A stretch of 64,000 nt of DNA from Halostagnicola larsenii XH-48. Lineage in GTDB: Archaea > Halobacteriota > Halobacteria > Halobacteriales > Natrialbaceae. The DNA is taken from assembly GCF_000517625.1 (NCBI RefSeq), contig NZ_CP007055.1, forward strand, positions 1-64,000. The letters run 5' to 3'. Under the pieces are notes generated by a model. It did no database searches. It saw only the letters and a list, made by a program, of their open reading frames with translations, and had not been told where the DNA came from. Made by a program: the position numbers and the translations under genes. Of this stretch, positions 18,572 to 19,192 are shown one piece after another (position 1 is the stretch's first letter; every line of letters starts with the position of its first letter).

Positions 18572-18719
18572 ACATTGGTTTTTAAATTGACATTATACAA
18601 AAGCACCGCTTCGATAAGTTCGCATTTGTAGTATGCGTATCTCTCACATCAACCCAAGCAAAAAATAGGATATTAGTGGCAGACTCCGCTTCCGGTGGTC
18701 TGGTGCTCGAGCAACCCCC

Positions 18720-18875
18720 TCAGAGGTCAGGCGAGCCGACCAGACACCCACACGGCGAGCAGATGTGCTCTGTCGGCCCGCGGCTCGTGACTCGAGTAAC
18801 CGGCGTGTCACACCGCGGACAGCGTGGCAGCGACGACGCTTCGCGCTCGTCTTCAGTTGGTGACTGGTCGCTCAT
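18720..18875 (-). CDS. 51-residue zinc-finger microprotein
   Basis: A short frame starting MSDQSPTEDEREASS and ending LVGSPDL. It has an acidic N-terminal tail followed by C19-P-R-C22 and C39-S-P-C42-G-C44, spaced to bind one zinc ion. Haloarchaea carry many such CPxCG-type microproteins, some with regulatory effects on biofilm or motility. The halophilic codon bias and ordered cysteine pairs make it credible despite its size. It lies upstream of, and on the opposite strand to, the candidate ncRNA promoter. Confidence 0.65.
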   Translation of the reverse strand: MSDQSPTEDEREASSLPRCPRCDTPVTRVTSRGPTEHICSPCGCLVGSPDL

Positions 18876-18943
18876 CGGTCCCTCGAGTGCAGTTTTCGGG
18901 GAGCGCCGGCTAGTTGATAGCGGTACGGCTGTCGTGCGAGACG

Positions 18944-18950
18944 TTTATAT
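18944..18950 (+). promoter_or_regulatory. TATA box for candidate ncRNA
   Basis: TTTATAT is followed about 25 bases later (18971) by the start of a highly structured segment. No protein gene begins nearby on this strand, so the promoter would serve a non-coding or leader-type RNA. Confidence 0.5.
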
Positions 18951-18970
18951 CTCGGTAGAATCAACGCAAA

Positions 18971-19075
18971 CATGGTTTCAACCCTATCCGGGTTAGAAAC
19001 CGCGCCTCGGGTGCTGTGACACCCGGGGCATTTCAGCGCATGCCCCTGGCGGCTGATTGAAGCGCGGTTTCTATC
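18971..19075 (+). ncRNA. candidate structured ncRNA with alternative stems
   Basis: The segment folds in two competing ways. Stem A pairs GGTTTC and AACCC (18974-18984) with GGGTT and GAAACC (18990-19001). Stem B pairs AGAAACCGCGC (18995-19005) with GCGCGGTTTCT (19062-19072), an 11-bp perfect helix using the same bases as the 3' arm of A. Inside B lie two further hairpins: CGGGTG/CACCCG (19008-19025) and GGGGCAT/ATGCCCC (19025-19046). A TATA box is well placed upstream. A 15-codon frame begins at 18972, but no gene follows on this strand, so I favour a stand-alone RNA. It matches no RNA family I recognise. Confidence 0.5.
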
Positions 19076-19192
19076 TTGATTGTTGTCGGGTAGTCACTTA
19101 TACTATTGGAATTTCGACGGGCAGAAACAACTCAGATTTGCCTTCTGTATAACGTTCTTCCCTCGAAAACACAGGCTGTCTCTCTCGAGTCG

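Follow-up and report, generated by a model that had tools for sequence, protein, structure and literature searches.

A dispersed haloarchaeal locus predicted to encode a cis sense/antisense RNA module with a hypervariable loop beside small zinc-protein genes

Bacterial plasmids and toxin-antitoxin loci offer classic examples of antisense control combined with a coupled leader open reading frame (ORF), and in the CopA/CopT system specificity is set by loop sequence. CopA of plasmid R1 is a cis antisense RNA that acts together with translational coupling (PMC5415839), and in hok/mok/sok, a type I toxin-antitoxin system of plasmid R1, translation of hok requires the upstream ORF (uORF) mok (PMC11228461). 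The U-turn motif YUNR occurs in antisense recognition loops and speeds sense/antisense pairing (PMC6562991). In Halobacterium salinarum, the pairs brz-brb and bp4-OE2447F each combine a small basic ORF with a zinc-finger gene, with bp4 located upstream of its partner and overlapping it by 7 bp (PMC3184054); the OE2447F transcript starts 134 nt upstream, a distance too short to accommodate a leader of the kind described below. Cis-antisense RNAs are common in Halobacterium and have been linked to type II toxin-antitoxin genes (PMC6523106). A limited search of the open literature turned up no archaeal system in which antisense control and a coupled leader ORF occur together.

Here, we describe a locus in a window of 64,000 nt of the Halostagnicola larsenii XH-48 genome (NZ_CP007055.1, positions 1 to 64,000) that, judged from its sequence, probably represents a cis-encoded sense/antisense RNA module, in which a small plus-strand RNA would repress a leader-uORF-zinc gene unit on the minus strand (Table 1). 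Like hok/mok/sok, the module would join a short uORF coupled to a main gene (PMC11228461) with a small antisense RNA opposite the leader and recognition through a U-turn loop (PMC6562991), and it exists as several paralogous copies per genome; unlike hok/mok/sok, it is archaeal, its protein is a small acidic zinc ribbon and not a hydrophobic toxin, and its predicted antisense RNA begins at the start codon of the uORF. With CopA/CopT-tap-repA of plasmid R1 it would share a cis antisense RNA and translational coupling (PMC5415839), but it contains no replication gene and is dispersed, multicopy and mostly chromosomal. Despite the resemblance to both systems, we withhold the label of type I toxin-antitoxin system because the protein is no hydrophobic peptide. 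The overlap of a small haloarchaeal ORF with a small zinc-protein gene is shared with brz-brb and bp4-OE2447F; these, however, are single pairs as opposed to 15 to 32 copies, and have no described structured leader or antisense RNA. Unlike the known haloarchaeal cis-antisense RNAs, which are mostly low-level and unconserved, the predicted RNA pair of the module is conserved, structured and multicopy.

Table 1. Coordinates of observed and predicted features of the module in the window
Feature	Position	Strand	Remarks
Whole module	18719..19129		Zinc-gene stop codon to just past minus TATA; conserved between dispersed Halostagnicola copies
51-aa zinc-ribbon protein (CPRC...SPCGC), presumed controlled gene	18720..18875	-	
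33-codon upstream ORF, ATG at 18973	18872..18973	-	Stop overlaps zinc-gene start (ATGA)
Putative promoter of antisense RNA	18937..18954	+	BRE-like CGAGAC and TTTATA (18944-18949) within palindrome
Predicted antisense small RNA, about 64 nt	18971..19034	+	5' hairpin, 10-bp hairpin and AUUUC; ends inferred
Helix A, 5' hairpin of plus RNA	18974..19001	+	GGTTTC 18974-18979 / GAAACC 18996-19001, inner AACCC/GGGTT
Hairpin 2, 10-bp stem	19004..19029	+	Hypervariable loop CTGTGA 19014-19019
Predicted structured leader of uORF/zinc mRNA	18974..19075	-	Start about 19075
Helix B of leader	18994..19073	-	18994-19005 with 19062-19073, closes hairpins 2 and 3
Hairpin 3 of leader	19025..19046	-	GGGGCAT/ATGCCCC
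TATA box of predicted leader mRNA	19097..19102	-	TATAAG on minus strand

An earlier note on this segment had proposed a structured plus-strand RNA with its own TATA box, in which GAAACC could pair within either of two helices, and the individual elements that it named are borne out. The TATA box lies 27 nt upstream of CATGG (18971), GAAACC can pair either with the upstream GGTTTC of helix A or with the downstream arm of the long-range helix B, which is a perfect 12-bp inverted repeat (TAGAAACCGCGC and GCGCGGTTTCTA), and both inner hairpins (CGGGTG-CTGTGA-CACCCG and GGGGCAT...ATGCCCC) are present. On the plus strand, the order is TTTATA, CATG at 18971, hairpin A, the ten pairs of hairpin 2, and a CATTTC that ends at 19034; on the minus strand, it is TATAAG, the predicted RNA start, arm a, hairpins 3 and 2, arm b and hairpin 1, followed by the uORF start codon, the 33-codon ORF, ATGA and the zinc-ribbon gene. 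As the note had stated, no gene follows closely on the plus strand (no ORF of at least 80 aa); the minus strand, in contrast, does have a following gene, which belongs to the system. The plus-strand fold of 18971-19075 gave a z score of -3.98, with none of 200 shuffles as good, and z scores were -6.07 for the 66-nt plus RNA and -6.88 for the minus-strand leader; the folds that beat shuffles and the near-fixed TATA-CATG spacing support the proposed structured RNA with its own TATA box and a start near 18971. A number of other identities were considered for the segment and rejected. Covariance models gave no support for a riboswitch or any other Rfam family, as no match in the window reached the gathering threshold (the best of the weak matches was isrL, E 0.35); no tRNA or intron was found, and plus-strand coding from the ATG at 18972 is at odds with a core that occupies all three frames across copies. 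A possible CRISPR-repeat-like handle, ATTGAAGC (19056-19063), such as marks the CRISPR-regulated toxin-antitoxin RNAs CreA/CreT, lies in a variable arm and is not kept in other copies.

The strand on which a helix acts as RNA can be read from its non-Watson-Crick pairs, as a G.U pair on one strand corresponds to C.A on the other. Over 246 copies, with kinship handled by a per-genome tally alone, helix B carried 178 minus-strand vs 25 plus-strand wobbles (113 vs 11 in the first 152 copies), and 41 genomes leaned toward minus vs 2 toward plus, while wobbles of helix A were mostly on the plus strand (22 vs 3). Hairpin 3 wobbles were again mostly on the minus strand (67 vs 24). At the base of hairpin 2, T-G occurred 153 times, T-A 48 times, C-G 31 times and C-A never (p 6e-4); because C-A is the sole combination forbidden on the plus strand, its absence points to plus-strand constraint. 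The covariation check in relatives revealed compensatory changes in both helices; four pairs of helix B had changed on both sides, with a covariation score that none of 500 shuffles reached, helix A covaried between copies, and 100% of the cells of hairpin 2 were paired in 32 sequences. Both helices evolve under pairing constraint. The suggestion that one RNA switches between them is not supported by the strand counts, as strand-opposed wobbles give helices A and B the look of 5' folds from two separate RNAs; the simplest account is two RNAs, in each of which the first arm pairs with a central arm common to both. The plus-strand constraint on helix A could stem in part from promoter sequence.

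A separate TATA box stands at a near-fixed distance from each of the two predicted RNAs. The plus TATA-CATG distance was 27 nt in 141 copies without indel, and the distance from the minus TATA to the 5' arm (arm a) was 26 nt in 106 of 147 copies and 24-28 nt in 132 of these. After CATTTC, conservation on the plus strand declines from 84-100% to about 40%, as would be expected if the plus RNA ended there; of the segment extent given previously, the start near 18971 is retained, while the plus RNA probably ends near 19034 instead of 19075. Interpretation of the palindrome at the putative plus promoter as a mere bidirectional operator was rejected; the palindrome is also part of the uORF, in which codon positions reveal no constraint on the amino acids. 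Outside Natrialbaceae, the minus promoter is kept and the plus TATA is weak, a pattern that would also agree with a leader that acts alone in cis, with the minus RNA sensing a ligand, a metal or its own zinc protein in order to control the uORF, and with the plus TATA being coincidental or a weak divergent promoter. While such a leader would account for the minus-strand constraint on helix B and hairpin 3 as well as for the common orientation of leader, uORF and zinc gene in most copies, we consider it unlikely; it leaves unexplained the near-fixed TATA-CATG spacing and the conserved block from the plus promoter to CATTTC, the plus-strand signals in helix A and at the base of hairpin 2, and a loop that is hypervariable between copies with nearly the same protein.

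In 158 of 169 copies, the first stop of the uORF lay no more than 12 nt from the main start (10 and 4 for the other frames), and in 166 of the 169 the uORF frame ran uninterrupted as far as the main gene, spanning 44 to 328 nt (46 and 22 for the other frames); stop and start overlapped as ATGA in 107 copies, an overlap from which we infer that translation is probably coupled. A zinc or HalOD1-like gene was located on the same strand beside 194 of 227 copies. Among 13 zinc-protein paralogues, variation at the third codon position (659) exceeded that at the other two (139 and 106), which shows purifying selection on the zinc protein; the uORF peptide gave no such signal. The main genes belong to several unrelated small zinc-protein types, including CPxCG...PCGC, HalOD1-like with a zinc ribbon, and CxRC...CPDC, with SWIM-like proteins in other families, and their Pfam matches fall below curated cut-offs; these acidic zinc ribbons, HalOD1-like or SWIM-like proteins do not resemble hydrophobic membrane toxins. 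For the type c zinc protein, a predicted structure (pLDDT 78) gave only weak ribosomal eS26-like matches (best E 0.12). A Halostagnicola subclass (L034, L046, L181-L190) has a HalOD1-like domain, with a match below the Pfam cut-off, ahead of the zinc ribbon, and carries the plus promoter GGGATGTTTAAGCCCG. Copy L174, located on the Halomontanus rarus plasmid NZ_CP135523, has a TFIIB-family gene as a neighbor, which begins on the plus strand about 245 nt beyond the element.

The stem of hairpin 2 is almost invariant, and its loop of 6-7 nt took 148 distinct forms among the 246 copies. In 157 close pairs, which are non-independent and without tree correction, differences affected 50% of loop positions vs 8% of the remainder; loop divergence was also seen in orthologues whose two flanks match (e.g., L057/L080 at 95.5%). 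Two pairs within single genomes differed at one position elsewhere and had unrelated loops, namely L198/L200 (CGCCAA and TTTGTGG) and L269/L275 (TTCTGG and ATCCAG). A tandem pair (L014; G014:C1:2400248 and 2401391) is 96% alike over about 445 nt and differs in loops and 3' arm; it is a recent duplication that has already diverged at the loop. All loops were distinct in this genome (15 of 15), in G014 (27 of 27) and in G058 (20 of 20). At matched divergence, identical loops were found in 1 of 118 within-genome vs 19 of 197 between-genome pairs (p 8e-4), a comparison that mixes in orthologues, which inherit loops; by plain permutation, within-genome loops resembled random draws (3 identical pairs vs 6.1 expected, with about 32 of 300 shuffles as low). 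The YUNR motif was present in 81 of the 148 loops vs 47 +- 6 in shuffles without control of positional base preference. Loops were no more complementary to the remainder of the module than shuffled ones, and loop hypervariability could be partly mutational. Fifteen different loops in one genome, with a zinc protein always close by, might also suggest that the plus RNA belongs to a family of trans-acting, guide-like small RNAs, in which each loop addresses a different mRNA and the zinc protein serves as the common RNA-binding partner. This seems improbable to us, as it leaves the geometry of an opposite-strand leader and uORF unexplained and would require wholly different targets for copies that are 1 nt apart; loops of six nucleotides are also too short for target testing.

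The segment belongs to a dispersed multicopy family. By DNA search, it was detected in 34 of 100 relatives, all of one family, and a covariance model identified 15 full copies and one remnant in this Halostagnicola genome as well as 12-32 copies per genome in eight relatives; the matches listed for the core pattern in public genomes were Natrialbaceae. Other haloarchaeal families show the same three-arm plan in different letters (model R1), with 12 copies and 12 loops in G225 and single copies in G236, G257, G089 and G147; in two copies from other families (L195, L196), the neighboring minus-strand ORF can begin at CATG itself. Haloarchaeal genomes appear to contain as many as about 30 such modules each, of which almost every one has its own recognition loop. 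A viral origin was rejected, as the core pattern had no matches in IMG/VR or in a phage collection. Broken copies (L192, G000:C3:8807-8861; L047; L048) consisted of the RNA core alone, the zinc gene and promoter with an in-frame stop, or the 3' part alone. Dispersed copies with unrelated flanks, breaks of synteny that often lie directly 3' of the element (+106 to +183 in 9 of 10 pairs), and a few loops that appear inverted would fit a non-autonomous mobile repeat with a mutational hot spot in its hairpin loop (through cruciforms or template switching) and with an RNA that has no regulatory role. We give this very little credence; the homologous block, which in 10 full-length copies ends at 18719-18723 and 19112-19129 (blastn), is bounded by stop codon and promoter with no terminal repeats seen, the strand-specific pairing, ORF overlap and codon-level selection require function, and loop inversion was not significant (4 pairs vs 1.6, 41 of 500 shuffles). 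Several pairs (L163/L107, L078/L131, L165/L078, L011/L019 and L154/L163) combine long zinc-side homology with a loss of similarity that often sets in 106-183 nt after the core start, only a short way past the leader promoter, which may mark a rearrangement or insertion hot spot. A tyrosine recombinase-like ORF (MSDLEPITPQEAVDLYVAHRELEVSRKTLQNHRYRL...) lies about 300 nt downstream of copy L015 and possibly belongs to an integrated element that uses this site.

In the sense/antisense module that we favor, the minus-strand mRNA would start near 19075, fold its leader and continue through the uORF into the zinc-ribbon gene. A strong plus promoter inside the uORF would produce the antisense RNA, the 5' end of which would cover the uORF start codon. 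Loop-loop contact at hairpin 2 would let this RNA recognize the leader of its own module, and subsequent annealing would block the uORF and, through it, production of the zinc protein. As stems and flanks are near-identical in all copies, it is the loop of 6-7 nt that could tell 15-32 copies apart. More tentatively, and with considerable doubt, up to about 30 near-identical modules may be kept apart by a rapidly rewritten loop barcode of this length, each with its own zinc protein, as a type I toxin-antitoxin-like or self/non-self system in which the loop is replaced as a block.

Wobble pairs can assign an RNA helix to a strand where the structure looks palindromic. If the proposed module is real, it would provide a regulatory setting for part of the haloarchaeal zinc-motif micro-proteins and, with many parallel copies, would make the evolution of RNA-RNA specificity readable from hundreds of natural variants.
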